From Cellulophaga sp. BC115SP (lineage in GTDB: Bacteria; Bacteroidota; Bacteroidia; Cytophagales; Spirosomataceae): DNA of 56,433 nucleotides. The notes below the pieces were generated by a model. The model was given only the letters and a program-made list of their open reading frames with translations, made no database searches and was not told the DNA's origin. The position numbers and the translations under genes were made by a program. The stretch's first letter is position 1. Each line of letters begins with the position of its first letter. Below, piece by piece: positions 13,736-37,735 of this stretch. The stretch covers positions 1 through 56,433 of the forward strand of contig NZ_JAAALB010000041.1 in NCBI RefSeq assembly GCF_009905545.1. Direction: 5' to 3'.

Positions 13736-14820
13736 TTATTGACTCCGCCTTATTTTTTGAGTCTCATTACGTTCTTTGTCATATTGGTAATTTTCATCAT
13801 AAGGTATATTGTTCTTGTATATAGTATAAATCAAGACAAGCATCTTTCTTTGTACAGCTACATTCCCTTTCATTTTTATGGCTGTTCTTTCGGTGATTTT
13901 TTCATAGGTGCTTTTCATTTTAGTATTGAATCTGCTTGCGGTTGTAGCTGGGAAAAATAGCGCTTTTCTAATATTTTTATTCCCTTTTTTAGAGATCCTA
14001 GTTTTAGATTCGGCGTTCCCAGATTGTTTTCTTACTACATCATATCCTGCATAACTAATAAGTTGGGCTTTATTATTAAATAAGGCAAATCCATTAGTTT
14101 CAGCAATGATAACGATAGCAGAGAGCAACCCTACATCTTTAATGGAACAGACATTGGATACTCGTTTTGCTAAGTCTTGATCTTTTTCAACGATGTTTTG
14201 AATTTCTTTTTCAATCTCTTGAATTTGTGCTTTGATAAAAATTAACCTACTTTCTAATCTCTTTAAGATGCTTTCTTCAGGTTTATAAGTGTGTTTCCAA
14301 GCATGAGATTGATTTTTAACGGTAGTCTGTTCTGCTTGAAGCATCATTCTTTCTCGACACAGATGTTTCAAAAGTCGCATTTGAGTGCTGCCAGGTTGCC
14401 ATAGTTTAAGTTTTCTTTCAAGACCCATTTGAGCGATGGCTTGTGCATCGATATCATCTGTCTTTGACTTAATATTATGGCTTTGCATAAAGAATTTGAC
14501 ATTCTTTGCTAATTGAACGCTCACAGATTGATTTCTTTCTAATAAATCAAATGCCAGCGATTCGTAATAAATCCCAGACTAGGCGTCCCCGTAGCTTCCA
14601 TTACATAGATTAGTGGAAGTTCAGAGCTTGTGAACTTTGTGACCCATTCCTGTAAGGTTTTAAAGCCTGCAGGCGTATTACTGATTTTTTTAGTACTTTT
14701 TACAACAATTTCATCGCTTGAAGTCTTGTGACTAATGCAAGCAACAAAACTATCCTTACTGATGTCAATTCCCACACATTGACGTGAAATAGATGGATTA
14801 CTAATTACATTTTTGCTCAT
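13736..14820 (-). pseudogene. IS110 family transposase, frame broken by a 14-nt insertion
   Basis: The first part (14539-14820) is the DEDD/RuvC-like N-terminus (CVGIDISKDSFVACI, YVMEATG). The second part (13736-14524) has the coiled middle (KTDDIDAQAIAQ) and the Transposase_20 C-terminal domain (IKDVGLLSAIVIIAETNGF, ISYAGYDVV, RISKKGNKNIRKALF). Between them the frame shifts at a 14-nt GC-rich insert at 14577-14590. Removing exactly those 14 bases gives EATGIYYESLAFDLLERNQSV, joining both parts in one frame. The element was therefore a full-length IS110-type recombinase of about 355 residues, inactivated (or recoded) by that insert. No terminal inverted repeats were seen, as is usual for IS110. 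Confidence 0.92.
14577..14590 (-). repeat. 14-nt insert GGGGACGCCTAGTC in IS110 transposase
   Basis: On the coding strand the insert GGGGACGCCTAGTC splits an ACT codon (gctac|insert|tgggattt). Deletion restores Ala-Thr-Gly-Ile-Tyr-Tyr. It differs from the IS630 inserts (35207, 36326) at one base. Confidence 0.85.
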
Positions 14821-14824
14821 GGTC

Positions 14825-15050
14825 TTAGATAGATAAAATTGTCTTTTCTCGTCCTATACAAGCTTACCACCATTTTGGTGATGCTTAAGGTGCTGTTGTG
14901 ACTCTTAGCAATGAGTGATGGGGAATCCCTTGAAATGTACATATCCAAATGGATTGTTTAGACAAAAATCTCCTCTCATCACACAAATGCTAATTTCGGA
15001 ATTTAATCTATTTGAACATGAATTTTAGTAAAACAAACATACGAGACAAA
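14825..15050 (-). ncRNA. Candidate IS110 bridge RNA region
   Basis: The ~230 non-coding bases upstream of the IS110 transposase correspond to the left end, where IS110-group elements are known to encode their bridge RNA. Small hairpin-forming stretches are visible (CACCATTTTGGTG near 14869; GGGGAATCCC near 14919). The location follows family knowledge. RNA boundaries, the target- and donor-binding loops and expression are not established. The rest of the gap up to 15246 holds one dispersed repeat and no gene. Confidence 0.35.
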
Positions 15051-15133
15051 AAGTAAGATGAAGAATTAATCAATAAAATATGTCTTTTGAAAAGTTTAAG
15101 CAGCTTCACTATAATGTCTGATACGTCAGCCTT

Positions 15134-15157
15134 AGACGCAAGACATTGCGTCTCTAC
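15134..15157. repeat. Dispersed AGACGCAA-N-TTGCGTCT palindrome
   Basis: AGACGCAAGACATTGCGTCT followed by CTAC. Near-identical copies lie at 20690, 20856 and (decayed) 44901, two loci of which also carry the long hairpin repeat. Confidence 0.7.
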
Positions 15158-15246
15158 TGGTAGAATATAGATTTTTAAGATAATCATTCACTCAATCGCA
15201 ATTCACTAAATTAGAGATGAATCATGCGTGAATAAATAACAAACTT

Positions 15247-15711
15247 TTAATTCATCGAACTTCCCAAAAGTACTCTCAAATAATGCTCTAGGCGCTCAAT
15301 ATTTTGTTTTTGTCCTTCATCGGCCTTATGTGCTTTTACCACAATGTCGTACATTTCTGGAGTATCGAACAACATTGACCAGTCAATTTGGGTTTCGTCT
15401 CCTTTTTCCTCAAAAAATACGGTTGTCGTAAAATGAGGGTTAAAATGTTCGAATACAATTTTATGATAAGGAATGATTTCCAAATAGATACTTCGATTGG
15501 GATAATTTTTCCCATCTGGACCATGCATAGTCATTTTCCATTCGCCTTCTTCCTGCACATCCATCACATGAATCGTAGACGTAAATCCAGCGGGTCCCCA
15601 CCAGTTAACTATATGTTTGGGCTCAGTCCAGACTTTCCAAAGCAATTCGATCGGAGCATCGAAGGTTGTGATAGTTCGGAGCTCTTTGATACTAGTAGTA
15701 TTCATTTTCAT
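15247..15711 (-). CDS. AHSA1/SRPBCC domain protein
   Basis: About 154 residues from the chosen ATG (MKMNTTSIKELRTITTFDAP). A longer frame to 15777 adds 22 residues that do not match the family. The core shows the activator-of-Hsp90-homologue 1 / SRPBCC pattern: FDAPIELLWKVWTEPKHIVNWWGPAGFTST, then GEWKMTMHGPDG and YHKIVFEH. Such proteins bind small hydrophobic ligands or act as stress-related effectors. It is cytoplasmic and appears monocistronic. Function beyond the fold is unknown. Confidence 0.85.
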   Translation of the reverse strand: MKMNTTSIKELRTITTFDAPIELLWKVWTEPKHIVNWWGPAGFTSTIHVMDVQEEGEWKMTMHGPDGKNYPNRSIYLEIIPYHKIVFEHFNPHFTTTVFFEEKGDETQIDWSMLFDTPEMYDIVVKAHKADEGQKQNIERLEHYLRVLLGSSMN

Positions 15712-15807
15712 AAAGGGTTTAGCATTATCGTAGCTAAAAATAACCGAAATTTGACTAATACCAAAGTAATATAGCACTTTATCGATATTCTTTTAGGTTT
15801 GTAACAA

Positions 15808-16974
15808 TCAATGTCCTTTTGTTACTTCATCAAAAACTTTACAAAAATTTGCTCCTCCTATCTTGATAATTTCGGGTTCTGTCAAGCCGAGTTTTAATAA
15901 TTCTTCTACTACGGTATAGAAATACCCCGAATGCTGAGATTCCCATATTTCATTGGTACGCTCGCCAAAACGTTTTGACTGATTGTTATTATTATTCTGA
16001 CGATTTTGGTTAGCATTGGGAGAACGATAAGCGGGAGTCAATTTGGTATCTGTTCCCAAACACACATGGTTAACCCCTACTACATCTACCATTGCCTTGA
16101 TATTTTGTGCATAAGCAACTGGCGAGTCCGTTAAATGTCGCCAAACTCCAATTAAACCTCCCGCATTAGCCACAATTTTGGCTTGCTCTTGACTAATCAA
16201 ACGTGGCATCATCATTTTCGCCATACTAGGATTTTGTCCCAATTGCGTATTCAAACTCGTGTGTGATACCACCATAGGTTTGCTCGAAAGTTTGAGAGCA
16301 TCGTTAATGGCAGCATCGCTACAATGCGTTAAATCAATCAAAATCCCTAATCTATTGCATTCTTTGACAACTTCCTTTCCAAAATCCGACAATCCATTAA
16401 ATTTAGGAGGATTAGTATAAATATCGCCCAAAGGCACCGAGGCATCATTGTCGTGTAAAAGTCCTAATTGTCTTAGTCCTCGTTGATAAGCGATGCCTAA
16501 GCGTTCTATTTTACCTTCTAAAAAATGCCCTCCTTCTACCGATTGAATTACGATTGGAGTACCAGCCTTGTGAGCTTTCTTAAGGTCTGAAAGGTTGTAT
16601 GCTCTCTTAATCTGATTGCTTTCCAACATTTTATCCATGGCATCCAATCCATTCATAAAACGCTCGTAGGCTTCTCCTTCGTAGGTAAGTTTTTGGTAGT
16701 CTACCGCAAAAGTCATACAAATAGCAGAAAGCCCTGATTTTTTCATTTCCTCTTTTAACGCTACCTCAGGACCAGGCAACTCCTCTTTTTTGAGAGGAAC
16801 GTCTATGTGATTATGCGTGTCTATCGCAATAGTTTTATTGACGATAGCGACTATACGAGGATCTGTTTCATCGATGGCAAATGAACGTAAAGGTTTGAAT
16901 AACATAATACCACCTATACCAGAGATAGCTGTCAAAAAATGTCTTCTTGTAAAAGCGTTTCGGATTTCTTTCAT
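15808..16974 (-). CDS. Membrane dipeptidase family (peptidase M19), Tat-exported
   Basis: A 388-residue protein with a twin-arginine leader (TRRHFLTAISGIGGIMLF). The M19 renal-dipeptidase zinc site is visible in order: DTHNHID (His-x-His/Asp), SVEGGHFLEG (bridging Glu), LTHCSD and VVSHTS (His ligands) and GTDTK (Asp). A short Asn/Gln-rich insert (PNANQNRQNNNNNQSKRFGE) interrupts the C-terminal part. The expected activity is hydrolysis of dipeptides, often containing D-residues, in the periplasm. It is monocistronic. Confidence 0.92.
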   Translation of the reverse strand: MKEIRNAFTRRHFLTAISGIGGIMLFKPLRSFAIDETDPRIVAIVNKTIAIDTHNHIDVPLKKEELPGPEVALKEEMKKSGLSAICMTFAVDYQKLTYEGEAYERFMNGLDAMDKMLESNQIKRAYNLSDLKKAHKAGTPIVIQSVEGGHFLEGKIERLGIAYQRGLRQLGLLHDNDASVPLGDIYTNPPKFNGLSDFGKEVVKECNRLGILIDLTHCSDAAINDALKLSSKPMVVSHTSLNTQLGQNPSMAKMMMPRLISQEQAKIVANAGGLIGVWRHLTDSPVAYAQNIKAMVDVVGVNHVCLGTDTKLTPAYRSPNANQNRQNNNNNQSKRFGERTNEIWESQHSGYFYTVVEELLKLGLTEPEIIKIGGANFCKVFDEVTKGH

Positions 16975-17224
16975 GATTTGATTGTCTGAATTGTTAGCAA
17001 TAATTAACTCGATAAAAGCTATCGATTGATTATTTTGACAAACACTTAGACAAGGATGTTGCTCAAATGTGAACGTATCTTGAAGGGAAACTACTTTTTT
17101 TCGACATACATAATCTACAGCGCCATCATCGGAGATTTTTTGACCCCGAAAAACTGGTTAATACAAAAAAGAAAGCACCAAGATATTGTAGTTATAATCC
17201 TTAATGCTTTCATATTTATTCCAT

Positions 17225-17704
17225 TTAGATTCGATTAATAATATCATTTGCAACAGCCTTGAGTTCAGCTATAGAAGTTTTTTCTGAAAATTCATTTACT
17301 TTGAGTCGAATCATTTCATTCTTTTTTCTTGCGATAATGAGACAAAAATTTTTGCCATCACTATGAAAAAATGCTTCCTCTCCCACGCCGCTCAATGTCT
17401 CATACCCACTTTGATGTTGGTTGCTTTTCTGGAATTCTGAATATAGTTTGATCGCCTCAGCTTCATTTTCATAACTATCAAACATAAAATATAAGGCCTT
17501 TTGTGGTCTATCAACTGTACTTGACTTGGTCAAAAACTTACATTTGTATTCATGACCACCATTCTTTGATGCACTTGAACTTTCGGAAAGCTCACAGGAT
17601 TCTCCCAAAATTCTTGTTGCTTCTTGTTGGGTTATTTTATGACCGCCAATAGCGGGAGCTACCAATGAAAAGATAGAGATTAATCCATATAGTATTATTT
17701 TCAT
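17225..17704 (-). CDS. Small exported protein, unknown family
   Basis: A 159-residue protein with a signal peptide (MKIILYGLISIFSLVAPAIG). The mature part has two Cys (CELSESSS, YKCKF), a helical KLYSEFQKSNQ segment and a central GVGEEAFFHSDGKNFCLIIARKKNEMIRLKV block that resembles small periplasmic or lipid-binding domains of Gram-negatives. I do not recognise the family. It sits alone between the dipeptidase and the AraC regulator. Confidence 0.7.
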   Translation of the reverse strand: MKIILYGLISIFSLVAPAIGGHKITQQEATRILGESCELSESSSASKNGGHEYKCKFLTKSSTVDRPQKALYFMFDSYENEAEAIKLYSEFQKSNQHQSGYETLSGVGEEAFFHSDGKNFCLIIARKKNEMIRLKVNEFSEKTSIAELKAVANDIINRI

Positions 17705-17774
17705 AGCTTGAATAAGTTTAAGTTTTTTCAGAGATGCTATTTTTACTTAAATGTTGCACATTTAAGCCTAAAAA

Positions 17775-18650
17775 TCAAACACTTAGCCTTCTATTTTTAT
17801 ATTGCCCAGGGGTCATGCCTGTAATAGACTTAAATACTCTTGAAAAATAAGAAACACTTTCAAAACCAGTTTGTGAGGCAATTTCCTCAAAAGACAAATA
17901 CCCTGTAATCATTAGGTACTGTGCCCGCTCAATTCGTTTATCAAGAATATAGGAAATAGGGCGCAAACCTGTTGCTTGAAGGAACAATCGCGAAAAATAA
18001 TCAACGTGCATATTGGCTCTGGACGCCAGCAGGTTTACTGATATTTTTTGAGACATATTAAGCTGAATATAACTTATCGAATCCATGATTTTAGACGGAA
18101 TATCAGAAGTGTTTTTCTCTAAGTCAGGCTCTTTATTCAAGAATTTTGCAATTAATTGATATAAAATCCCCTGTGTTTCGAAATGGCAAGACAATGATTG
18201 TTGATGGTTTAAATCTTGATATTCTTTGTAGTAAATATCTTTCTCATACACCTTGGGGTTGTCAGAACGGTTGATTCCTCTGCCAGGATTTATTTCTAGT
18301 AATCGCTTAAAATTGAAAATATCACCTTCGTTGGCACTTACTCTCATTACTTTTCGCTGATTGGCAAATAAGGACAATCCATTGCCTGATTCCTCAAAAA
18401 ATTGAACAAAGTATTGACTCAGATATTCATCACAACTTAAATCACATACCGTAAAACTTGGAATGAGATACAAATAACCCACTTCCAAATCGACCACACC
18501 TTGCGGGCTAGTAATCTTTCCTTTTCCTTCATCGATAAAATATAGTCTATAATAGGGACTAATCACGGTTTTGTAATTCCATTTTATTCCCAGTTTCACA
18601 TAGTCTACATGCAGCAATGAAAAGAGTTGATTACTTGAAAAACTTCCCAT
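17775..18650 (-). CDS. AraC family regulator with cupin sensor, beside GH29 fucosidase
   Basis: A 291-residue regulator. The N-terminal AraC_binding cupin (about 20-160: YRLYFIDEGKGKI, GYLYLIPSFTVC) should sense a small ligand, and the C-terminal AraC HTH domain (about 190-290: ISVNLLASRANMHVDYFSRLF and FEEIASQTGFESVSYFSRVF) binds DNA. It is divergent from the secreted alpha-L-fucosidase gene. The intergenic region has two copies of AAGTCTGATTTGTAYAA, one near each gene, suggesting it controls both itself and the fucosidase. Confidence 0.92.
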   Translation of the reverse strand: MGSFSSNQLFSLLHVDYVKLGIKWNYKTVISPYYRLYFIDEGKGKITSPQGVVDLEVGYLYLIPSFTVCDLSCDEYLSQYFVQFFEESGNGLSLFANQRKVMRVSANEGDIFNFKRLLEINPGRGINRSDNPKVYEKDIYYKEYQDLNHQQSLSCHFETQGILYQLIAKFLNKEPDLEKNTSDIPSKIMDSISYIQLNMSQKISVNLLASRANMHVDYFSRLFLQATGLRPISYILDKRIERAQYLMITGYLSFEEIASQTGFESVSYFSRVFKSITGMTPGQYKNRRLSV

Positions 18651-18654
18651 AAAT

Positions 18655-18671
18655 AAGTCTGATTTGTATAA
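18655..18671. promoter_or_regulatory. Putative AraC operator, copy 1
   Basis: AAGTCTGATTTGTATAA, four bases from the AraC start codon. It matches copy 2 at 18807 except for one T/C. The match is seen; binding is inferred. Confidence 0.5.
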
Positions 18672-18806
18672 ATTAATCTAATAAAGCGATAGCTATCTTT
18701 TTCACTAAAAAACAATCATTTAAGATTCAATACTAGATAAAATAAAGAATTTTCATAACCTTTTCTATGTAGTTTTATCTAAAAAATGAAGATAGATACT
18801 TCAAAA

Positions 18807-18823
18807 AAGTCTGATTTGTACAA
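18807..18823. promoter_or_regulatory. Putative AraC operator, copy 2, upstream of fucosidase
   Basis: AAGTCTGATTTGTACAA, followed 7 bases later by a half-match GCTGATTTATATAA. It lies about 45 bases before a probable -7 box (TAATTTTG at 18867-18874), a normal activator position for the fucosidase promoter. Confidence 0.5.
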
Positions 18824-18904
18824 TAAAATCGCTGATTTATATAAGAACTAAACTGTCCTTGGCATTTAATTTTGCTTTATCAATTCAATGTATCTTGATA
18901 AACT

Positions 18905-20563
18905 ATGAAAAGACGAGCGCTTTTAAAACAACTTGGTTTAGGCTTTTCAGCTCTTAGCTTGGCGAAGCCGACTTTTGCACAAAATTCTTTTGCAAATTTT
19001 TCAGGAGGTGAAAAAATCGCCACTGGAAGATTTACACCTGATTGGGCTTCTTTAGAGCAATATCAGGTTCCAAAGTGGTTTCAAGATGCCAAATTTGGTA
19101 TGTGGGCGCACTGGGGTCCCCAATGTCAGGCGGAGGCAGGCGATTGGTATGCCAGAGGGATGTATCAAGAGGGCGACTGGCAATATAAATATCATGTAGA
19201 AAAATTTGGGCACCCGTCTAAGTTTGGGTTCAAAGATATTATTCATGAATGGAAAGCCGAAAAATGGAATCCAGATGAGTTGGTGACGCTTTACAAAAAT
19301 ACAGGAGCGAAATATTTTATTGGTATGGCCAATCACCATGACAATTTTGATATGTACGACAGTAAATATCAAAGCCAATGGAACTCTACCAAAATGGGTC
19401 CTAAGAAGGATATTATCGCTGGCTGGGCAAAAGCTGCCAAAGCCAACAATCTTCCTTTTGGCGTAAGTATCCATGCAAGTCATGCTTGGCGATGGTACGA
19501 ATCTGCACAAAGAAGTGATAAAAATGGCGCATTAGCGGGAGTTCCTTACGACGGCAAACTGCGTAAATCTGATGGAAAAGGACAGTGGTGGGAAGGTCTT
19601 GATCCACAAGATCTTTATGCTCAAAATCACGATCTTAGTGAGAATAGTCTTCAGAATGGGGCAATTCACAAACAATGGGAATGGGAAAATGGGGCCAACA
19701 GACCATCAAAAGAATATATTGAAAAGTTCGTAAATCGTACCATTGACCTCATCAATAAATACGACCCTGATTTGTTGTATTTTGATGATACCAAACTTCC
19801 ATTTTGGCCAATTAGTGATGCGGGATTGCGCATCGCAGCCCATCATTACAACATGAGTATCAAGCGTCATGGAGAGTTAAGAGCTGTTATTAATGGTAAA
19901 ATCTTGGATGAAAACGAGCGTAAAGCCATGGTTTGGGATATCGAACGTGGACAAGCTAGTGACATTCAACCTTTTGTTTGGCAGACGGATACCTGTATCG
20001 GAAGCTGGCACTATGATCGTGGCGTTTATAATCGAGATGGCTATAAATCAGCTAAATCTGTCATTCATGCTTTGGTAGATATTGTTAGCAAAAATGGAAA
20101 TTATTTGCTCAACGTACCCGTACGTGGCGATGGAAGCATTGATGAAAAAGAACGTAAAATTGTAGAAGAAATCGGACGTTGGATGGCCGTTAATAGTGGT
20201 AGTATTTATGGAACAAGACCATGGAAAATCTACGGCGAAGGTCCTTCTACTCAAAACGAAGCCAAACTAAACGCACAAGGTTTCAATGAAGGTAAAACAA
20301 AATATACTGCTGAAGATATTCGCTTCAATACTTTGGGAAATACCCTTTTTGCTACGGTAATGGATTGGCCTTCAAATGGAAAAGTGGTTATTAAAAGCTT
20401 AGCTCAAAATAGCCCTTTACATGCACAAACCATCAATAAAGTTGAGTTTTTAGGAAATCAAAATCAGCCTTTGAGTTTCGAAAGACTTTCGGATGGCTTG
20501 CATATCCAATTTCCAGAAAACAAGCCAGTAGATAGCTACGCGAATGTCTTGAAAATTTCTTAG
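18905..20563 (+). CDS. Alpha-L-fucosidase, GH29
   Basis: A 552-residue secreted glycoside hydrolase. The leader MKRRALLKQLGLGFSALSLA is a Tat-like signal. The GH29 catalytic barrel follows (WFQDAKFGMWAHWGPQ, EWKAEKWNPDELVTLYKNTGAKYF, NHHDNFDMYDS, HASHAW). The nucleophile region is YDPDLLYFDDTKLPFW, with Asp294 the likely nucleophile, and a small C-terminal beta domain completes it. It should release terminal alpha-L-fucose from plant or algal glycans outside the cytoplasm. It is likely controlled by the divergent AraC regulator. Confidence 0.93.
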   Translation: MKRRALLKQLGLGFSALSLAKPTFAQNSFANFSGGEKIATGRFTPDWASLEQYQVPKWFQDAKFGMWAHWGPQCQAEAGDWYARGMYQEGDWQYKYHVEKFGHPSKFGFKDIIHEWKAEKWNPDELVTLYKNTGAKYFIGMANHHDNFDMYDSKYQSQWNSTKMGPKKDIIAGWAKAAKANNLPFGVSIHASHAWRWYESAQRSDKNGALAGVPYDGKLRKSDGKGQWWEGLDPQDLYAQNHDLSENSLQNGAIHKQWEWENGANRPSKEYIEKFVNRTIDLINKYDPDLLYFDDTKLPFWPISDAGLRIAAHHYNMSIKRHGELRAVINGKILDENERKAMVWDIERGQASDIQPFVWQTDTCIGSWHYDRGVYNRDGYKSAKSVIHALVDIVSKNGNYLLNVPVRGDGSIDEKERKIVEEIGRWMAVNSGSIYGTRPWKIYGEGPSTQNEAKLNAQGFNEGKTKYTAEDIRFNTLGNTLFATVMDWPSNGKVVIKSLAQNSPLHAQTINKVEFLGNQNQPLSFERLSDGLHIQFPENKPVDSYANVLKIS

Positions 20564-20689
20564 TAAATAGAAATTCAATATTAAAACAACGAATTATAAT
20601 CCTCTTTGTAAATTCAAGTAAAAAGAAGTTAAAAGTATATCAGTTATTGGATTACACTCATAATCAGGAGGATATTACCACAGATAGCA

Positions 20690-20713
20690 GTAGAGACGCA
20701 ATGATTGCGTCTC
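20690..20713. repeat. Dispersed AGACGCAA-type palindrome
   Basis: GTAGAGACGCAATGATTGCG plus TCTC, in the opposite orientation to the copies at 15134 and 20856. Confidence 0.7.
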
Positions 20714-20732
20714 AAGCAGGGTAAAATCTGGG

Positions 20733-20791
20733 AAGGTTTCATCAAAAAAGCGGTCGGAAAATATTTCCGACCGCTTTTTTGATGAAACCTT
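20733..20791. repeat. Long hairpin repeat (28-bp stem), AAGCGGTCGGAAA core
   Basis: An almost uninterrupted 59-nt palindrome: 28-bp perfect stem and a 3-base loop, with the shared core TCAAAAAAGCGGTCGGAAA also found at 44828. It is flanked on both sides by AGACGCAA palindromes. No gene is supported in 20564-20946. Confidence 0.8.
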
Positions 20792-20855
20792 GGAGAATCT
20801 TAAAATTCGGGATGGCTCATGTTTTTGATCCTATATTTCAGAATGACACCTTTTC

Positions 20856-20880
20856 AGACGCAAAGCATTGCGTCTCTACT
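20856..20880. repeat. Dispersed AGACGCAA-type palindrome
   Basis: AGACGCAAAGCATTGCGTCT followed by CTACT, the best-preserved copy in the window. Confidence 0.7.
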
Positions 20881-20946
20881 AATAAAATTCATATTTAAAA
20901 TAATCACTAAATTAAGAATGACTCTATTTTACCGTTTCATTTTGAT

Positions 20947-28873: not shown

Positions 28874-28893
28874 TATATCCTCTTGGACCACTA

Positions 28894-30576: not shown

Positions 30577-30727
30577 CTATTTGAGCGCAACGATGTAGAA
30601 CGCAATTCTTGAATTTTTTGCGACCGCCGCAGCGGTTACTTTTTGTTTTAAAACGGGAACATCTAGTTAAAAGTACGGCTAAAAATTAATCAAAGAATAG
30701 CATTTTATTGAAAGTTTAAACAGCTCC
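30577..30727. repeat. Second copy of the CCGCCGC-AGCGGTTACTTTTTGT repeat
   Basis: TTTGAGCGCAACG, then CGCCGCAGCGGTTACTTTTT and, further on, GAAAGTTTAAACAG. All three blocks have counterparts in 13500-13640. Confidence 0.55.
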
Positions 30728-30829
30728 TTTGTACTTATAATGTGTCTCGATTCATTTGCTCGTAAAATAATACAGAACCCTTCAACTATTTCAATTACTT
30801 TGAAATAATCTATTATTCAACGAAGGCAA

Positions 30830-31078
30830 GTACGAACACTTGACCTTTACTCAGGAATTAAGAAAGGTGAATCTTGGTTTTTTGACTACATATACAAGTT
30901 AGTTTATACTAGTCATCAGTATGAATTGAAAGGAGATAAAACCTAGCCTTTGATTTATATCAGGACGCTATTTTAGATTTATTTCTCCGAATAAAAGAGA
31001 ATCGTCTAGAAAAAAGAACATTAGAAAAGGGCGGAATGATTATCTCATAGATAAAGCAACATTTAGAATGGAAACGGG
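30830..31078 (+). pseudogene. Relic of ECF-type sigma factor, region 2
   Basis: Reading across frames gives GIKKGESWFFDYIYKLVY, then LAFDLYQDAILDLFLRIKEN, then KGGMIIS, stop, IKQHLEWKRDDHW. This is the pattern of a sigma-70 family region 2 of the Bacteroidota ECF kind. A frameshift near 30945 (after ELKGDK), an in-frame TAG in IIS-stop-IKQH and a further shift at about 31085 break it. The downstream 94-residue frame continues the same protein. Confidence 0.6.
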
Positions 31079-31363
31079 ATGATCACTGGAAAAAGTGCTA
31101 CTAAATACAATGATAGACTTGATATGGTAATTCATGAACAATATACAGCAAGAGCTGCTGAGGCAGAAATGATTTTATATTACAAAGATTTGCTCATGAA
31201 CATAAATAAACTATCGACAACTTGTGATGATTTGTTAAAGATAAAACTTATTGAAGACCTTGCTTGGCAAACAATTTATCTACGTTATCCCAATGAAAAT
31301 AAGGGTTCATTACGAGTCAAATTCAGTAATAGTATAAAGAATCTTCGGAAGATACTCTCTTGA
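31079..31363 (+). CDS. 94-residue frame, probably the C-terminal (region 4) part of the sigma relic
   Basis: An open frame whose ATG overlaps the out-of-frame end of the sigma relic. Its second half, CDDLLKIKLIEDLAWQTIYL then SLRVKFSNSIKNLRKIL, resembles a sigma-70 region 4 helix-turn-helix. Correcting one frameshift at the A run near 31087 joins WKRDDHWKK to SATKYNDRLDM. I therefore think it is not an independent gene, though a short protein could still be made. It lies 72 bases before the caspase-linked module, for which the intact sigma factor may once have been the regulator. Confidence 0.5.
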   Translation: MITGKSATKYNDRLDMVIHEQYTARAAEAEMILYYKDLLMNINKLSTTCDDLLKIKLIEDLAWQTIYLRYPNENKGSLRVKFSNSIKNLRKILS

Positions 31364-31435
31364 TAGAAGAACTAAGGTTTAATAAAAGCCTATAAATCAT
31401 TGACTAGCATTTTGATTTAAACATTTTTCACAACC

Positions 31436-32239
31436 ATGATAAAACAAATATCCAAATGGCTACTCTTTGCATTTTGCATATTCGTAGCAAACTCGAACTC
31501 CTTAATGGCTCAACTTAGAGTAGAAGCCAATAGCGCTATAGTAGAAAATGGAAAAATAAAAATTTCATTTTTTGTTCCATTTAGTACAAACAACTGCTAT
31601 GATATTCAAGCATTGGAAGTAATTGCTATTGAAACCAACACAAAAACAATACCTCATACTCTAATAGGTAAAATAACTCAGTTAAGTACCGGAACAAATA
31701 ATATTATATGGGACTATAAAGTAGATGATTTTTTTGTGGATGGGGATTTCAAGATTATTGTCTCATTAAAATTATGCCCATTAATAGAAGTACTTACTCC
31801 CCCTAAGAAAGAAGTGGTAGTAAACCCTCCTAAAAAAGAGGAAGTAATTGCTACGCCTACAAGAGCAGAAGAGTTATCCTTTAAACCACATCCCATAGGC
31901 TTGAAAATAGCTGTTGGAGTAATTGGGGTTGCTACAGCAGTTATGGCAAACTCAATTAAGAGTAACTTCAATTCAAAATTGGCTATTCTCAAATCACTAG
32001 ATACTAGTGTGAACAACGAGTTTTTGTCAAAGAGTGATTTAGATAAATGGACTGCCGCTGCTGTAGATGCACAAGCCGCTCGTCAAACAGGATTATTAAA
32101 TGTACTAGTAATTGGTTCTGCCCTCTCATTTGGGTATGAAGTTTTCTTATTAGCAACAAAGGTAAAAGTAAAGGAGAAAGGCTTAGGCTTTCAGCCTGCA
32201 TCCCACCAAACAGGTATATCATTAACCTATAAATTTTAG
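31436..32239 (+). CDS. Exported Ig-like protein with C-terminal membrane segments, caspase-module gene 1
   Basis: A 267-residue protein with a signal peptide (about 1-25, ending NSLMAQ). Residues 26-110 look like a beta-sandwich (LRVEANSAIVENGKIKISFF, IWDYKVDDFFVDGDFKIIVS). A proline/lysine linker with tandem PPKKE repeats follows (about 118-140). Then come two hydrophobic segments (about 155-172 and 222-242). The end, ISLTYKF, resembles an outer-membrane C-terminal strand. The next gene (caspase) starts 10 bases after its stop, so they form an operon. No named family is recognised; the likely role is an envelope scaffold for the caspase. Confidence 0.7.
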   Translation: MIKQISKWLLFAFCIFVANSNSLMAQLRVEANSAIVENGKIKISFFVPFSTNNCYDIQALEVIAIETNTKTIPHTLIGKITQLSTGTNNIIWDYKVDDFFVDGDFKIIVSLKLCPLIEVLTPPKKEVVVNPPKKEEVIATPTRAEELSFKPHPIGLKIAVGVIGVATAVMANSIKSNFNSKLAILKSLDTSVNNEFLSKSDLDKWTAAAVDAQAARQTGLLNVLVIGSALSFGYEVFLLATKVKVKEKGLGFQPASHQTGISLTYKF

Positions 32240-32249
32240 TTATCTATAT

Positions 32250-33320
32250 ATGAGACAGTCTGTACTACTTTTAATTACCATCTTTTGTTTCTTGTACGCA
32301 TCTTCGTTCGCTCAATTGAGCTTAAATACCATTAATTTGAAAGAAGTTCGCTGGACAGAACCTTCTCAAGTATCTTCTAGTGGGGTATATCAAACTAATC
32401 AGACAATACTAACTTTCCATTGTAAAGCAGAGTCTGATGCTAATTTAGACAAGAGTGATTTTACGCTATTTGTAGATGGCGAGAGTTTTGTCCTGTCTAA
32501 TGCCAACTGTAAAAACAATGAGCTAACTTTTTCGGCTCAACTTTCTTTAGAAAAAGACCATGAAGTCTACGTTTCTGTTAGAAAAGGAAGAAGAGTGGTA
32601 CAAACACCATTATTAAAAATCGTACGCTACAAAGCTGTTAAACGTTTTGCCTTCTTACTTGGAAATTCTGATTATATTAACACACTCTCGTTAAATAATA
32701 GACCTTTAGAGGACATCAATGCCATTGCAGCAAGTTTAAAAAAGCTTGACTTCACCATTCATTCTGTAAGTAATTTATCGAGAATTGGCTTACTAGATTC
32801 CTTAGACAATTTTGTAGCAGAAGCACACCATGCTGATATGATTTTTTTCTATTATGCCGGACATGGCATTCAAAATAGTGGAAAAAACTATCTAGTTCCC
32901 GTAGATGCAAAATTCAGAACAAGAACAGACATTGCACCTCGTGCTGTAGAAATTCAATACATTATCAATAAGCTTGAAGAAAGTAATCCAAAATGCAAAA
33001 TAATTGTGTTAGATGCCTGTAGAAACGAAGCATTTCCTGTGTTATCCGCAGATTCAAGAGGAGATGATCTTCGTGGCTTTAGCCCTATTATGGGAGTAAG
33101 TGTTGCTAAGGGAGTAGGTACCTACATTGTTAATGCAACTCAAGCAAATCAAACAGCTGCCAATGATGGTATTTTCGCTAAAGAATTGGCCTCGGCACTA
33201 GGCAGAGGAAAGACAATATCTGAAGTATTCAGAAGGGTACGAACCAAAATTGTTGAATTGTCAGGCTCGCATCAAGAGCCAGAAATCAATGATAAACTAA
33301 CAGAGGAAATAACTTTTTAA
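32250..33320 (+). CDS. Exported caspase-family protease (peptidase C14)
   Basis: A 356-residue protein with a signal peptide (about 1-21), an Ig-like beta domain (about 25-122) and a caspase p20 domain (about 130-350). The His-Cys dyad is intact: His205 in YYAGHG and Cys257 in IVLDACRNE. KRFAFLLGNSDY opens the domain and GTYIVNATQANQTA and SGSHQEPEI close it. Caspase homologues of bacteria cut after basic residues. The signal peptide places this one in the envelope, unlike cytosolic defence caspases. It follows the Ig-like protein by 10 bases and precedes an FGE-fold protein by 175 bases. No inhibitor or target gene is obvious. Confidence 0.9.
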   Translation: MRQSVLLLITIFCFLYASSFAQLSLNTINLKEVRWTEPSQVSSSGVYQTNQTILTFHCKAESDANLDKSDFTLFVDGESFVLSNANCKNNELTFSAQLSLEKDHEVYVSVRKGRRVVQTPLLKIVRYKAVKRFAFLLGNSDYINTLSLNNRPLEDINAIAASLKKLDFTIHSVSNLSRIGLLDSLDNFVAEAHHADMIFFYYAGHGIQNSGKNYLVPVDAKFRTRTDIAPRAVEIQYIINKLEESNPKCKIIVLDACRNEAFPVLSADSRGDDLRGFSPIMGVSVAKGVGTYIVNATQANQTAANDGIFAKELASALGRGKTISEVFRRVRTKIVELSGSHQEPEINDKLTEEITF

Positions 33321-33495
33321 GATACAAATCAAATGATAAAGTGATCTATTCATGCTTTGCTACTGATGAAGAATTACGAATAAGTCTTAGCCCATTTGCA
33401 AGACCTAATATTCGCATTGCATAATTATGATAAATATGTTCCAAAATCCATACTTCGAAAGCAGTATTTGATCTTCAAACAAAAATTAATTTAAA

Positions 33496-34629
33496 ATGAA
33501 ATTACAACTATTATCTCTATACATAAGTTTCTTATTGTTTACTACAAATTGTAGTTTAGAAGCAATAGAAACAACTAAAACACTTAAAACTTGTAGTAGA
33601 GCAACAAGTGCATCCGCATCAAGCTCCACACCTCTTAATGTTAATATGAGTTTAGTTGGTACGGTGAGTGATATCACGAGTGTAGTCTGGCAAATTAGTA
33701 AAAATGGCACTGAGTATTATAAAAGTACTACGAATATAAGCCCTTTTTCACTGACGAGTTCGACACTTACAACTGATGGCACATTCACTATTATTGCTCA
33801 AGTTACCGATAGATGTGGCTCTAATTACTCATTAACAACAAGTTATAACTACACTACTCCTAATTCTTTAGTGGTAGCAATGGTGCAAGTAGAAGGGGGA
33901 ACTTTTCAAATGGGAAGTACTACGGGGCAATCTGATGAACAACCTATCCATAATGTAACCTTGAATACCTTTAACATTGGTCAATATGAAGTATCTGTAT
34001 CTGATTTTAAAAAATTTATAGATGCTACTGGTTACCAAACAGATGCAGAGAAAAATGGAGGAAGTTATGTATATGATGGCAACCTTTGGCCATATAAAAA
34101 TGGAATAAATTGGCGTTGTGACGTAGCAGGTAACATAAGACCTACCGCCGATTACACACATCCAGTTATTCACGTAAGCTGGAACGATGCTGTAGCTTAT
34201 TGTAATTGGCTCAGTAATCAAACTGGTAAAGCATACAGATTACCTACAGAAGCAGAGTGGGAATTTGCCGCACGAGGGGGAAAATTAAGTAAAGGATATA
34301 CTTATTCAGGTAGTAACACCATAGGTAACATTGCCTGGTACGGTTCAAACAGCGGCAATATAACGCATCCTCTAGCACAAAAATTAACTAATGAAATTGG
34401 CATCTACGATATGACAGGAAATGTATGGGAATGGTGCCAGGATTTGTACGGAACCTACACCGCCACAAATCAAACAAATCCAACAGGAGCTAGTGCTGGT
34501 GTTAATCGAGTATTACGAGGTGGTAGTTGGTTTGACAATACTCAGGATAGTAGAATAACCTATAGACTTAACAGAGATCCAACTAATAGGGTTAGCAACT
34601 GTGGTTTTAGAGTAGCATCGTCTCTATAG
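33496..34629 (+). CDS. Exported FGE/SUMF1-fold protein with Ig-like N-domain
   Basis: A 377-residue protein with a signal peptide (a lipoprotein Cys at 19 is possible, FTTNC). A PKD/Ig-like domain (about 35-125) is followed by a formylglycine-generating-enzyme/sulfatase-modifying domain (about 130-377). The latter shows VEGGTFQMGS, FNIGQYEVSVSDFKKFIDATGY, HPVIHVSWNDAVAYCNWLS, YRLPTEAEWEFAARGG, DMTGNVWEWCQD, RVLRGGSWFDN and CGFRVA. The paired catalytic Cys of true FGE after RGGSW are absent, so the fold probably serves binding rather than Cys oxidation. The C-terminal 40 residues resemble the variable region of diversity-generating-retroelement targets; no reverse transcriptase or template repeat was found here. 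Confidence 0.88.
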   Translation: MKLQLLSLYISFLLFTTNCSLEAIETTKTLKTCSRATSASASSSTPLNVNMSLVGTVSDITSVVWQISKNGTEYYKSTTNISPFSLTSSTLTTDGTFTIIAQVTDRCGSNYSLTTSYNYTTPNSLVVAMVQVEGGTFQMGSTTGQSDEQPIHNVTLNTFNIGQYEVSVSDFKKFIDATGYQTDAEKNGGSYVYDGNLWPYKNGINWRCDVAGNIRPTADYTHPVIHVSWNDAVAYCNWLSNQTGKAYRLPTEAEWEFAARGGKLSKGYTYSGSNTIGNIAWYGSNSGNITHPLAQKLTNEIGIYDMTGNVWEWCQDLYGTYTATNQTNPTGASAGVNRVLRGGSWFDNTQDSRITYRLNRDPTNRVSNCGFRVASSL

Positions 34630-34806
34630 TTAGGAGAAATAGAACTTAAAAATATTTCATCGCTATTAGACTTTATCACGGTTTATTTGTTATGATCAAA
34701 AAATCATCATCGATTTCTAGAGATATACAAATACCTCAAATTTTGATAATTTAATGTGAATCAAGTAATCGTGCAGAATAATATTTAAGTTATTATTTTT
34801 ACGGTT

Positions 34807-35832
34807 ATGGGTCGTAAAAAGAAACAAATAGTTCTTGAAGAAAGCGAACATAGTAGCTTGCTTCATAATTCAAAATATCATCCAAAAGCAGAGGTTCGAG
34901 AAAAATGTCAAGCCATCTTGTTGAACCATTCAGGTCTTAGTCAAAAAGATGTTGCTCGTCATTTGCGAGTATCAGAAGTCTCTATTTGTCACTGGATGAA
35001 AACATGGAAAGAATCCGGGCTTGCTGGTCTATGCCGAAAATCAGGGCAAGGACGTAAACCCATTTTAAGTATTCAAAATACAGAACATAATCAACTTATT
35101 GAAAAAGTACTCCAACAACAAAATCAGAGTATAAAATCTATTCAAGCTGAATTAGCCAAAGAACTCTCTGTTGATATGAGTACAGATACGGTGAAACGCT
35201 ACTAAAGGGGACGCCCAGTCAAAAATTGTTATACATGGAGAAGAATCCGTCGCTGCACTCGCCAAGGTCAAAAGGAAAAGGTCTACCAAGACAAGTACGA
35301 AAGGTGGAAAACTCTCGTAACTCTTTATGTATTAGGATATATAGATCTCATATTCGCTGACGAGAGTGGCTTTACAATGCAACCTTATTTACCTTATGCT
35401 TGGCAAAAAAAGGGACAAACCATACGTATCTTCGCTCGTAATAACTCAAAAAGGTTAAACGTTTTTGGCCTTATGTCACTAGCAGGTCATTTGACCACCT
35501 ATCATACAGAGAAGCCAATTACAGCTGAATTTATCAAGTGCTCACTTGAAGATTTTATCGCCAAAAGGAGTGACAAACCAACCGTAATTGTACTTGATAA
35601 TGGCCCAGTACATCATGCCAAAATTGTCAAAGAATGTTCCCCTAGCTGGGAAGAAAAAAATACCTATTTATTCTATTTACCTACTTATAGTCCACATCTA
35701 AATCCCATTGAAATTTTATGGAGATTTATCAAATATAAGTGGTTAAATAGAGAGCATTATAAATCTTGGACCAGCTTTAAAAAGCGTATTCTTTCGATAT
35801 TTTCAGATTATGGAAACAAAGTATCTTATTAA
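34807..35832 (+). pseudogene. IS630 transposase, copy 1, interrupted
   Basis: The N-terminal HTH part (34807-35205) runs from MGRKKKQIV through LSQKDVARHLRVSEVSICHW to STDTVKRY, then hits TAA. The remainder in the same frame after the stop reads RGRPVKNCYTWRRIRRCTRQ and continues into the DDE domain (FADESGFTMQPY, VIVLDNGPVHHAK, LPTYSPHLNPIEILWRFIKYKW). The stop lies beside the 14-nt insert at 35207-35220, which adds codons foreign to the family. At the 3' end a single-base insertion (ACAAAG versus ACAAG in copy 2) replaces the C-terminus with VSY. Apart from these lesions the catalytic D-D-E residues are intact. Confidence 0.88.
35207..35220 (+). repeat. 14-nt insert GGGGACGCCCAGTC in IS630 copy 1
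   Basis: The same 14-mer is present in copy 2 and, with one change, in the IS110 transposase; the IS982 version differs at three positions. Family spacing between VKRY and CYTW is about 12 nt shorter than observed, so the insertion here is not a clean 14-nt event. Confidence 0.75.
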
Positions 35833-35935
35833 CTTTAATTCCCTTGTGAAAAATAACATAATTAGTGTAACTTAATTCTGCACGATTACTTAAGTATTCG
35901 TGCAAAATAAGATTTAAGTTATTCTTTTTACGGTT

Positions 35936-36993
35936 ATGGGTCGTAAAAAGAAACAAATAGTTCTTGAAGAAAGCGAACATAGTAGCTTGCTTCATAATTC
36001 AAAATATCATCTAAAAGCAGAGGTTCGAGAAAAATGTCAAGCCATCTTGTTGAACCATTCAGGTCTTAGTCAAAAAGATGTTACTCGTCATTTGCGAGTA
36101 TCAGAAGTCTCTATATGAAAACATGGAAAGAATCTGGGCTTGCTGGTCTATGCCGAAAATCAGGACAAGGATGTAAACCCATTTTAAGCATTCAAAATAC
36201 AGAACATAATCAACTTATTGAGAAAGTACTCCAACAACAAAATCAGAGTATAAAATCTATTCAAGCTGAATTAGCCAAAGTACTCTCTGTTGATATGAGT
36301 ACAGATACGGTGAAACGCTACTAAAGGGGACGCCCAGTCAAAAATTGTTACACATGGCGAAGAATCCGTCGCTGCACTCGCCAAGGTCAAAAGGAAAAGA
36401 TCTACCAAGACAAGTACGAAAGATGGAAAACTCTCGTAACTCTTTATGTATTAGGACATATAGACCTCATATTCGCTGATGAGAGTGGCTTTACAATGCA
36501 ACCTTATTTACCTTATGCTTGGCAAAAGAAAGGACAAGCTATACGTATCTTCGCTCGTAATAACTCTAAAAGGTTAAACGTTTTTGGCCTTATGTCACTA
36601 GCAGGTCATTTGACTACCTATCATACAGAAAAGCCTATTACAGCTGAATTTATCAAGTGCTTACTTGAAGATTTTATCGCAAAAAAGACAGACAAACCAA
36701 CCGTGATTGTACTTGATAATGGCCCTGTACATCATGCCAAAATTGTCCAAGAATGTTCCCCTAGCTGGGAAGAAAAAAATACCTATTTATTCTATTTACC
36801 TACTTGTAGTCCATATCTAAATCCCATTGAAATTTTATGGAGATTTATCAAATATAAGTGGTTAAATAGAGAGCATTATAAATCTTGGACCAGCTTTAAA
36901 AAGCGTATTCTTTCGATATTTTCTGATTATGGAAACAAGTATCTTATTAACTTTAATTCCCTTGTGAAAAATAACATAATTAGTTTAACTTAA
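35936..36993 (+). pseudogene. IS630 transposase, copy 2, multiply broken
   Basis: As copy 1, but a 10-base deletion near 36113 (TTGTCACTGG region lost) shifts the frame inside the HTH (SEVSI then stop). The TAA and 14-nt insert at 36326-36339 are present here too. The DDE half (36496-36993) is complete and has the better C-terminus (GNKYLINFNSLVKNNIISLT). Confidence 0.88.
36326..36339 (+). repeat. 14-nt insert GGGGACGCCCAGTC in IS630 copy 2
   Basis: Identical to the insert in copy 1 at the equivalent position, so present before the tandem duplication or transposition. Confidence 0.8.
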
Positions 36994-37060
36994 TTCTGCA
37001 CGATTACTTAATTTAGGCAACACATTTATAATCAATTAAAGGATTCATAATAAAAGATTT

Positions 37061-37735
37061 TTATTTAATAAAATGGTAAGCTACAATTACACCAGCAATA
37101 TTGGCAAAAGCATTTTTAGGTTTACGATGGCTAGTATACTCTAAATCGTAAACAGAGGTTAAAATATTATTGGTTATTATAGTTTGCTGGGCATTGTTGT
37201 TTCATATTCTTTTCTGGTTTCAAAACAAGATATAACCCATTAGTATAAAACAATTCTAAAAGTGAGGTATGGTCGCCTTTATCACCCACGCAAATACCTT
37301 GTAGATTTGCTATTAGTTTTTTGAGTAAATCAGCGTTGTTATCTGATACATTCCCTGCTGAGATTAACCAATTAACAATTTGACCATAAGAATTGATTAC
37401 TAAATGTAATTTAAAGCCATAAGACCATCGGGGATGCCTAATCCTGTTGAAGTTTTGTCTTTACAAGCAGAATCATCAAAAACTTTAGACGAATGGTCTC
37501 TTTTTAGATGGCAAACGGGCTGTTTTTTAGAGTCGATAAAATAAAGACCATTGCCTTGAGCATGTAAGCAACAATGTAATGAACAAAGCCACATTAGAGG
37601 ATAACTATGAGTCTTCAATGTTAAAAATCGTTCATAACTTAGAGCAGATGGGAAATAAGATGAATGAGTCTCCTTGATAACTTTACAGTGATAGTATTCA
37701 AAGCATTTATCACCCGATAGGTGATAACATGTCAC
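37061..37735 (-). pseudogene. IS982 family transposase relic with inverted 14-nt insert
   Basis: The 5' part reads YHLSGDKCFEYYHCKVIKE, YFPSALSYERF, GLYFIDSKKQPVCH and KDKTSTG, then shifts frame. The continuation is WSYGFKLHLVINSYGQIVNW, then LQGICVGDKGDHTSLLE. After another shift the end is SVYDLEYTSHRKPKNAF then IAGVIVAYHFIK. This is the IS982 DDE transposase. The first break is exactly a 14-nt insert (37430-37443). The N-terminal ~60 residues are missing and the relic abuts an FGE relic at about 37742. Confidence 0.85.
37430..37443 (+). repeat. 14-nt insert GGGGATGCCTAATC in IS982 transposase (inverted)
   Basis: On the strand opposite to the gene the insert reads GGGGATGCCTAATC. Removing it gives KTSTGWSYGFK, the conserved IS982 motif, in one frame. 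It is the third unrelated transposase family carrying this sequence. Confidence 0.85.

Follow-up and report, generated by a model that had tools for sequence, protein, structure and literature searches.

The SDR elements of Nostoc and its relatives are reportedly very short dispersed units of 21-27 nt; these cyanobacterial sequences are said to show compensatory stem changes, to sit in unrelated contexts and sometimes in repeats, and to be thought mobile. The STRR sequences of filamentous cyanobacteria are tandem heptamers, that is, short units with a G-run and a 7-nt period. IS200/IS605-type elements are two-ended and of kilobase size.

REPs are described, in the portions of the sources used here, as 20-40 bp long with stems of 5-13 bp and GTAG/GTGG or CGTC tags (PMC3733652, PMC3686654). 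In some families the REP lies within a palindrome, and no flanking transposase is described for REPs of the CGTC type (portions of PMC3733652). TnpA-REP chooses its cut via the tetranucleotide 5' of the hairpin; changing GTAG to GTGG moved cleavage to CC (portions of PMC8266576). The GC clusters of yeast mitochondria are 32-42 nt long, have a putative AG target duplication and can merge (portions of PMC4478555).

The window analysed here is a stretch of 56,433 nt from Cellulophaga sp. BC115SP. It contains a 14-nt unit in transposase genes of three IS families (Table 1). The unit, found at exact insertion points in several unrelated bacteria, is best read as a dispersed mobile repeat of ultra-small size, whose transfer in single-stranded form is tentatively ascribed to an HUH enzyme of the REP/IS200-like kind; it could then rank with the smallest DNA elements able to move.

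Table 1. Copies of the 14-nt unit and the elements that contain them, in window coordinates.
Feature	Position	Strand	Remarks
14-nt unit GGGGACGCCTAGTC in IS110 transposase gene	14577..14590	-	splits Thr codon of E-A-T-G motif
IS110-family transposase gene, two open stretches	13739..14853	-	upstream 14593-14853, downstream 13739-14575; Pfam PF01548 and PF02371 (downstream piece)
14-nt unit GGGGACGCCCAGTC in IS630 copy 1	35207..35220	+	within A8 run (AAA^AAAAA)
IS630 copy 1	34763..35891	+	inverted repeat AAGTAATCGTGCAGAAT at both ends; ORF A 34807-35205; downstream DDE frame 35221-35829
14-nt unit GGGGACGCCCAGTC in IS630 copy 2	36326..36339	+	same position as in copy 1
IS630 copy 2	35890..37011	+	95.6% identical to and abutting copy 1; inverted repeats imperfect
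14-nt unit GGGGATGCCTAATC in IS982 transposase gene	37430..37443	+	gene on opposite strand; at STG^W
IS982-family transposase gene, two open stretches	37170..37762	-	upstream 37445-37762, downstream 37170-37427; Pfam PF13612, downstream piece, from profile position 42

The unit in broken transposase genes

The sequence GGGGAYGCCYARTC occurs four times in the window and five times in the whole 7.08 Mb genome; the reversed-pattern control gave no match, and none of 100 window shuffles matched the unit. An earlier note on this DNA had located the four window copies, correctly in each case, and had judged chance recurrence very unlikely, as these controls confirm. It had also proposed tabulating a genome-wide search against transposase genes. 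All five copies lie inside broken transposase genes (IS110, IS630 twice, IS982, and IS4-like). The fifth, outside the window, is in an IS4-like gene (locus L001) whose pieces match the NCBIfam IS4 model over 1-64 and 67-158, each below the whole-protein cut-off; the NCBIfam matches of pieces from L007, L022 and L025 are also below such cut-offs. The claim that no copy lies outside transposase genes holds for the BC115SP genome and fails for the rest of the family (Spirosomaceae).

Uninterrupted relatives were found for the IS110, IS982, IS630 and IS4 genes. Those of the first three have no trace of the 14 bases. The IS110 relative L321 reads ATGGAGTCTAC^GGGAATT, and the IS982 gene of Adhaeribacter (51% identity) reads STG-WFFGFK with no break; both agree with the proposal that removing exactly 14 bases restores the conserved motif. 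For IS630, simple removal had been noted to leave a +1 offset at the A8 run. The offset exists, but it is native, because the uninterrupted IS630 of Runella (59% identity; TTTTAAAAAAAATAAT) has a stop and a frame change at the equivalent A8 run. IS630 copy 2 has an additional short deletion in ORF A. A DNA search of 59 relatives for close intact copies of the window's IS630 and IS110 elements returned only short matches beyond the window's own.

An ORF frame test gave 10 restored, 4 in frame and 5 other among the 19 long-ORF sites of 91 sites in the family, and 8, 8 and 6, respectively, among the 22 long-ORF sites of 30 in the Pseudomonadota set. This test was not clean, and exactness was therefore judged from the uninterrupted homologues: unrelated sequences that also exist in empty form are longer by exactly 14 nt.

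Distribution in the family and beyond

The unit was matched in 95 of 222 family genomes and 22 of 36 genera, some of these matches being due to chance. The search of related genomes that the earlier note had called for gave about 414 matches, versus about 43 for the reversed control; the large genus g33 shows no excess, with about 12 matches versus about 26 (all hand sums). Further sites are in IS1, IS3-type, IS5, IS256 and RAYT genes and in hairpin spacers. Copies recur at one and the same motif of the gene in three IS110 elements, in two of IS982 and in two of the IS3 type. Twenty-two matches are in genome G043, where the eight places read fall in one palindromic MITE; REPIN-like pairs carry units in G118. 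The unit is also present in single-contig genomes (e.g., G051 and G065).

Some sites contain head-to-tail 14-bp arrays of up to 9 successive units, with unit types mixed within arrays. A simple tandem repeat, made up mainly of slippage arrays, does not describe the unit: 168 of 180 non-redundant sites hold one exact unit, decayed neighbours being left out of the count. Sites near locus ends and sites sharing short flanks were dropped before the site, hairpin-junction, stem, flank and frame counts.

Four genomes stand out in a sample of 398 Pseudomonadota genomes; the others do not differ from the control (about 43 matches versus about 47; hand sums). The Pseudomonadota loci L189-L218 were taken as a chance set, although 4 of these 30 come from the rich genomes. 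By arithmetic, some 1,900 chance matches to the exact 14-mer are expected in 257 Gb, so isolated matches in GC-rich genomes may be chance. A scripted scan for REP-like structures was noisy. For the 127 matches of a GTDB scan, a strict script test assigned 13 to REP-like hairpins and 2 to hairpins of other kinds, a smaller number than inspection by eye had suggested. The loose pattern GGNNNNNGCCYANNN gave thousands of matches and was uninformative. The double unit, in two exact spellings, had no match in viral contigs (0 and 0), and BLAST found no tandem unit in plasmids, where its low-complexity filter may hide such arrays. Six exact unit sequences had no match in the text of 5.39 million papers, and literature searches for 14-bp REP insertions and for Cytophagales repeats returned nothing on the unit.

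Hairpin form and Pseudomonas REP loops

As read from its copies, the unit is a structured hairpin, GGG-xyz-GCCYA-z'y'x', with a 3-bp stem and a 5-nt loop, because the stem bases covary (GAC/GTC, GAT/ATC, GGC/GCC, GCT/AGC). Pair 6-12 in the family set (n=135) is C-G in 107 copies, T-A in 21, C-A in 4 and T-G in 3. A scan of the family with the stem left free adds GCT/AGC (7), GGC/GCC (3) and GTC/GAC (1). Complementary stem changes are also a property of REP hairpins. On its own, the 3-bp hairpin has little stability (-0.3 to -2.3 kcal/mol for DNA, no better than shuffled sequences), and two of five unit variants prefer an alternative fold in DNA folding.

The unit also occupies the loop of Pseudomonas REP repeats, with 189 filled slots in five of seven genomes and a control of 0. 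The inserts were not preselected for the unit; among the 150 listed of the 189, nearly all are the unit, and 125 are exactly 14 nt long. In these 125, pair 5-13 is A-T in 99, G-C in 23 and other in 3, and pair 6-12 is C-G in 123 and C-A in 2, as derived from the tables of those 150. Position 14 is C in 89, T in 35 and G in 1, and the facing position 4 is G in 123. The Pseudomonas copies are located where the REP loop starts on its 5' side, preceded by G or C and not by RTC.

Insertion sites

Empty sites, which the earlier note had suggested looking for, exist both as uninterrupted paralogues and as palindromes. The palindrome AAGTYAAGTTTT..TTRACTT is filled and empty, respectively, 8 and 18 times in G062, 6 and 7 times in G097, and 0 and 3 times in G087 (hand count, the two strands merged by hand; reversed control 1). 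The fills have an invariant position, before TTGACTT; nine of the 14 are the exact unit, and five are variants of 14-15 nt.

The base at -1 is C in 89 of 119 sites (background C 0.19), and in 34% the three bases preceding the unit are identical to its final three (1000 permutations gave a mean of 22% and a maximum of 29%); the sites in these flank tests are partly non-independent, including MITE and palindrome copies and decayed neighbours. At about one third of the sites, a 3-nt duplication plus an 11-nt core fits as well as a 14-nt insert; such a target duplication can be dismissed only at sites such as that in IS110, where the triplet before the unit and the triplet at its end are different. 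Empty sites and the C at -1 give the unit the preferred left sequence and the lack of target duplication that characterize IS200/IS605-like elements. A MITE would have the terminal inverted repeats of a DDE transposon and a target duplication; the unit is 14 nt in all, and the IS110 and IS630 sites have no duplication.

The junction of loop and 3' arm (arms at least 7) was the site of 18 of 96 family insertions versus 0.7% of shifted controls, a test that became significant only after its geometry was changed and in which several of the 18 sites share one palindrome. The first version had shown no enrichment in the family sites, and none was seen in the GTDB and Pseudomonadota sets.

Search for an acting enzyme

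We inspected 30 Y1 loci from 14 genomes with about 1.5 kb on each side, a subset of the Y1 matches listed. The sole exact copy of the unit is within a disrupted Y1 gene, and a further copy, which has a single mismatch, is about 700 nt from another Y1 gene; REP-like flanking of a cognate RAYT gene was not found at these loci. Y1 genes are present in all 14 genomes, so their presence is uninformative. A Y1 motif scan of 162 sequences gave one match, which is a broken Y1 gene.

Discussion

That the unit is a dispersed structured insert is very probable. Movement by an HUH mechanism is a tentative proposal, somewhat short of an even chance, and a dispersed hairpin repeat family combined with single-stranded movement comes close to even. 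The suggestion of a tiny mobile or templated insert is supported: the gain is precisely 14 nt, paralogues without it exist, the sites are unrelated, and the copies can form tandem arrays and share a covarying hairpin. We infer that the unit would move as single-stranded DNA, like REP and IS200/IS605-type elements. Cutting would be by a nuclease of the Y1/HUH type, provided in trans, at two places: behind (R)WC on the left flank and behind the RTC at the 3' end of the unit. The 5' stem xyz could act as a guide by pairing either with the triplet at the target or with the 3' end of the unit itself. Entry might occur where single strands are exposed, at hairpins and replication forks. Copies would persist mainly in DNA that the cell can spare, such as transposase genes, MITEs, REP loops and terminators, and those borne by REPs and MITEs would be multiplied by these hosts. 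In its boldest form, which we regard as doubtful, the unit would be the smallest self-sufficient substrate of DNA transposition: a 14-nt hairpin whose 5' stem is both half of the fold and target guide, with a stem that is free if both partners change, which has passed from one to the other of Bacteroidota and Pseudomonas and whose targets are exposed hairpins and the conserved motifs of transposase genes.

An unlikely alternative is that a break, such as a nuclease-opened hairpin, is repaired by a polymerase, telomerase-like or of another kind, that copies 14 nt from RNA or DNA and so adds a single unit or several in head-to-tail order. Exact arrays with mixed unit types, the often primer-like upstream triplet and the hairpin junctions favoured in the family set would agree with such filling; however, covariation into several complementary stem types is not expected from a fixed template. 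For six loci, Rfam returned a single match, between a microRNA model and the palindromic MITE of G043, at 39.6 bits, far below the gathering score of 117; this points to no described template RNA, though an undescribed one may exist.

Equally improbable, in our estimate, is a unit with no mobility of its own, spread by host REPs, MITEs and IS elements and by tandem-array slippage. Large shares are indeed carried, in REP slots, the G043 MITE and the G118 pairs; however, the unit's presence in many unrelated genes (IS1, IS3-type, IS4-like, IS5, IS110, IS256, IS630, IS982, RAYT) and unrelated hairpins requires many separate arrivals.

Programmed translational bypass or recoding, by which ribosomes skip the 14 nt or shift frame and interrupted transposases still work, is considerably less likely. 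The IS110 genes L008 and L017, broken at the same place, have dN 0.05-0.07 and dS 0.52-0.69 over 451 codons; the IS3-type pair L007/L010 has dN 0.34 and dS 1.16 over 97 codons (the 27-codon downstream piece gives no dS), and L006/L009 have dN 0.08-0.17 and dS 0.44-0.82 over 56 and 78 aligned codons. Of 200 codons compared between the IS630 copies of the window, 16 have synonymous changes and 11 or fewer have non-synonymous ones. These values allow tolerance or bypass in some genes; however, independent insertion at a preferred site predicts equal dN/dS. A bypass element would lie in coding sequence between matching take-off and landing codons, whereas many copies are non-coding, both orientations occur, and L001 has an in-frame stop. 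The matching GGG codons reported at the edges are present in the window's IS110, but not at the equivalent site of L017 (AGGTAT). Bypass as a general role is rejected, as is a host system tagging transposases, since the unit is often located in REP loops and in hairpins between genes. Neither tagging nor bypass is needed to account for the unit, although interrupted homologues show a low dN/dS (0.07-0.3).

Chance or assembly artefact, despite the chance-level counts in most Pseudomonadota and in the 257 Gb estimate, is rejected for the family as next to impossible, given the shuffles, the genome and REP-slot controls of 0, the tandem arrays, the filled versus empty palindromes and the copies in single-contig genomes.

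If it is mobile, the unit, at 14 nt, would lower the minimum size known for transposable DNA, with one minimal hairpin serving as ends, guide and cargo, and would explain some frameshifted transposase genes in these bacteria. It is a ready test system, with stems, flanks and empty sites known in many genomes, and it allows one to ask whether genes interrupted at a single position remain under selection.

Comparison with known systems

With IS200/IS605 elements, the unit shares hairpin ends, defined left bases, no need for target duplication and, putatively, guide pairing; it differs in being one 14-nt hairpin with no linked transposase gene. It resembles SDRs, as these are reported, in being a very short dispersed unit with compensatory stem changes in unrelated contexts, and differs in length (14 nt versus a reported 21-27 nt), in sequence and in hosts (Spirosomaceae and Pseudomonas rather than cyanobacteria). 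STRRs are likewise short tandem units with a G-run; however, they have a 7-nt period, whereas the unit mostly forms single precise 14-nt inserts. Like yeast mitochondrial GC clusters it would be a GC-rich mobile hairpin, whereas those are longer and mitochondrial (portions of PMC4478555). It shares with REP/RAYT systems a 5' tag followed by a hairpin, pairs and clusters and, with some REPs, palindrome sites and no flanking transposase (portions of PMC3733652, PMC8266576, PMC3686654, PMC3116915). The tag plus 20-40 bp palindrome by which REPs are defined (portions of PMC3733652, PMC3686654) contrasts with its 14 bp, GGG and 3-bp stem, and the unit is itself found inside Pseudomonas REPs.

The 14-nt insert in the window genome

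The four 14-mers (form GGG-xyz-GCCYA-z'y'x'; hereafter the unit) stand exactly where the earlier note had placed them, and no shuffle reproduces them. We carried out the whole-genome search proposed there (7.08 Mb, 206 contigs, the window being contig 143); the pattern occurred five times and its reversed control not once. The fifth copy lies in an IS4-like transposase gene, whose upstream and downstream pieces match the NCBIfam IS4 model at profile positions 1-64 and 67-158, neither reaching the whole-protein cut-off. Each of the five copies therefore lies within a transposase gene, and four IS families are represented. The claim that no copy lies outside such genes thus holds for this genome but not for the family Spirosomataceae, where intergenic hairpin copies exist. 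A stretch two mismatches from the pattern consists of ordinary in-frame codons (GNAES) of the window IS110 gene and is not an insert.

Coordinates of the unit and associated features
Feature	Sequence	Position	Strand
Unit in IS110	window	14577-14590	-
Unit in IS630, first copy	window	35207-35220	+
Unit in IS630, second copy	window	36326-36339	+
Unit in IS982	window	37430-37443	+
Two-mismatch stretch, GGGAACGCCGAATC	window	14007-14020	-
IS630 ORF A stop at A8 run	window	35187-35235	
IS630 ORF A stop at A8 run	L349	741-860	
G001 paralogue with 14-mer	L006	1333-2717	
G001 paralogue with 14-mer	L009	1-3014	

Comparison with uninterrupted relatives

In a motif search of 30 fetched IS110 loci, the E-S-T-G motif was unbroken in 19. 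The closest unbroken element (L321; 84% amino-acid identity to the interrupted L008, open frame of 462 residues) has the empty site ATGGAGTCTAC-GGGAATTTACTGG; the interrupted site of L017 reads ATGGAATCTAC-[14]-AGGTATTTACTGG. An intact Adhaeribacter IS982 has a continuous STGWFFGFK, and the window IS982 has STG-[14]-WSYGFK. The closest IS630 found, a Runella slithyformis plasmid copy (59% identity) with an additional lesion downstream, has no insert. These relatives thus do not show the outcome that the earlier note had named as contrary to its reading, the unit as a normal part of intact IS110, IS630 and IS982 elements. Compared with them, each of the three window families has gained 14 bases net and lost none. 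At the IS982 site, a 3-nt duplication plus an 11-nt core fits equally well, because the upstream triplet ATC is also the unit's last triplet; it does not fit the IS110 site, where the upstream triplet TAC differs from the unit end.

The frame offset earlier noted for IS630 is real, but the insert is not its source, since the uninterrupted Runella slithyformis element shows a native frame change: it reads TTT-TAA-AAA-AAA-T, and at the A8 run that holds the insert in the window copies ORF A ends and a different frame takes over. Elements of this IS630 group that carry the insert and those that lack it both stop ORF A at TAA within the run and proceed in a different frame; the run is likely a native frameshift or slippage site.

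Interrupted genes and shared sites

Four of the five genomes of the genus contain the unit. Outside the window genome it lies in IS110 and IS1 (G004), two IS3-type orfA genes (G003) and a pair of paralogues (G001), of which one matches a fibronectin-type domain. The 14-mer occupies one shared position in these diverged paralogues, whose open frames are long apart from it. Across the family, matches occurred in 95 of 222 genomes, representing 22 of 36 genera, with a maximum of 37 copies per genome, a tally in which a lone match may be chance; one large genus, g33, showed no excess over control. Among the broken genes, Pfam or NCBIfam identified IS110, IS982, IS630, IS1 and IS256, with weaker or partial support for IS3-type, IS4-like, IS5 and a REP-associated tyrosine transposase. 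Two broken genes (L025, L310) are RAYT-like (Y1) transposases, the family that might be expected to move the unit.

Three IS110 elements (window, L008, L017) are struck at one shared codon or motif, as are a pair of IS982 elements (profile positions 42 and 43 in the window and L034) and a pair of IS3-type genes within a single genome (L007, L010). Homologues interrupted at a shared point showed low dN/dS. For the IS110 genes L008 and L017, from two genera, dN was 0.05-0.07 and dS 0.52-0.69 over 451 codons, in open stretches free of further stops or frame breaks. Pairs broken at the same place gave dN 0.08-0.17 and dS 0.44-0.82 in G001 (56 and 78 codons), and dN 0.34 and dS 1.16 in the IS3-type pair (97 codons; the short downstream piece gave no dS). 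The two window IS630 copies have 16 synonymous and at most 11 non-synonymous codon differences over 200 codons. These values point either to a recent, strongly site-specific insertion in each homologue or to tolerance of the insert. The shared IS982 site holds differing unit types (GGGGATGCCTAATC and GGGGACGCCCAGTC), as does the IS110 site, which favours, without settling, repeated independent hits at both.

Hairpins, MITEs and arrays

The palindrome AAGTCAAGTTTTGAAAACTTGACTT was found both empty and filled in G062 and G097, of one genus. A hand count over three genomes gave 28 empty and 14 filled copies, always filled at a single position before TTGACTT, by the exact unit (9/14) or variants (5/14). 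In other genomes, different hairpins have the unit at their 3' loop-arm junction, one of them followed by a T-rich run and terminator-like. G043 has 22 pattern matches; in the eight places read (L181-L188) the unit occupies the centre of a single palindromic MITE, ~190 nt long, whose ends read TAGACTTCCTGCGAAAGTGTTTTA. G118 has REPIN-like inverted pairs (CACCCTGAGCTTGTC^GAAGGGC; L224, L234, L244), a unit in each partner, ~89 nt apart. A single exact unit was present at 168 of 180 non-redundant sites; head-to-tail arrays with a 14-bp period reach nine exact units. Tandem units of another stem type, GGGGCTGCCTAAGC (other strand GCTTAGGCAGCCCC), occur beside main-type units in L026, L176 and L177.

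Pseudomonas REP loops

Scanning GTDB genomes for the exact string GGGGACGCCTAGTC gave at least 120 stretches. Among the matches listed, those from Pseudomonas often lie in a REP loop, between GTAGGAGCGAG and CTTGCTCGCGA, and a strict script accepted a REP-like context for 13 of 127. When only the REP arms were fixed, 189 loop inserts were found in five of seven genomes (reversed control 0); a simple likeness test passed 145 of the 150 listed, and 125 of these 150 measure exactly 14 nt. Among 398 evenly sampled Pseudomonadota genomes, only four stand out with ~20 copies each (two Pseudomonas genomes from the REP-arm search and, in addition to these, G308 and G312), the remainder being at control level. 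Viral contigs contained no exact double unit, and a tandem-unit query gave no match in plasmids.

Target preference and stem covariation

Immediately before the insert stands C at 89 of the 119 family sites, against a background of 0.19, and A at 3; the preceding triplet is GTC for 30 of 87 GAC/GTC units, and it equals the unit's own last triplet at 34% of sites, above all 1000 permutations (maximum 29%), counts to which decayed neighbouring units may contribute in part and in which copies of one MITE or palindrome recur. The insert lay at a 3' hairpin junction at 18 of 96 family sites versus 0.7% of shifted controls. An earlier, looser test had failed to show this enrichment, which the GTDB and Pseudomonadota sets lack.

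Nothing of the unit was preselected in the REP-slot set (n=125), and pairs were derived from per-position tables. Positions 5/13 covary (A-T 99, G-C 23, other 3); 123 inserts have C-G at positions 6/12, and 124 have C or T at position 14, both of which can pair with G4. In the family set (n=135), for which the pattern permitted all four combinations, positions 6/12 were C-G 107, T-A 21, C-A 4 and T-G 3, against C-G 15, T-A 6, C-A 3 and T-G 5 in Pseudomonadota (n=29). A stem-free scan gave complementary stems in 148 of 240 matches, with the additional types GCT/AGC, GGC/GCC and one GTC/GAC. The isolated hairpin is weak and folds no better than shuffles. Despite this, the covariation and the complementary stem types suggest that the paired state is conserved, as single-stranded DNA or RNA.

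Possible mechanism and known relatives

In combination, a hairpin, fixed left bases, a target-like 3' end and no required target duplication are marks of single-strand (HUH, Y1) transposition; a Y1-like enzyme acting in trans may move the unit as single-stranded DNA. No such enzyme was found: none of the 30 Y1 genes surveyed is flanked by the exact unit, which does lie inside two broken Y1 genes. None of six unit spellings is present in open-licence PubMed Central main texts (without figures and supplements), and a targeted search of these texts returned no description of the unit.

We take cyanobacterial SDRs to be one of the kinds nearest to the unit. The others are REPs and the mitochondrial GC clusters described in PMC4478555. 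In TnpA-REP systems, according to PMC8266576, selection of the cut is aided by a tetranucleotide 5' of the hairpin, and altering GTAG to GTGG shifted cleavage to CC. Some known REP families are inserted in palindromes and some are without a flanking transposase, as PMC3733652 describes. The unit may be the smallest of its kind.
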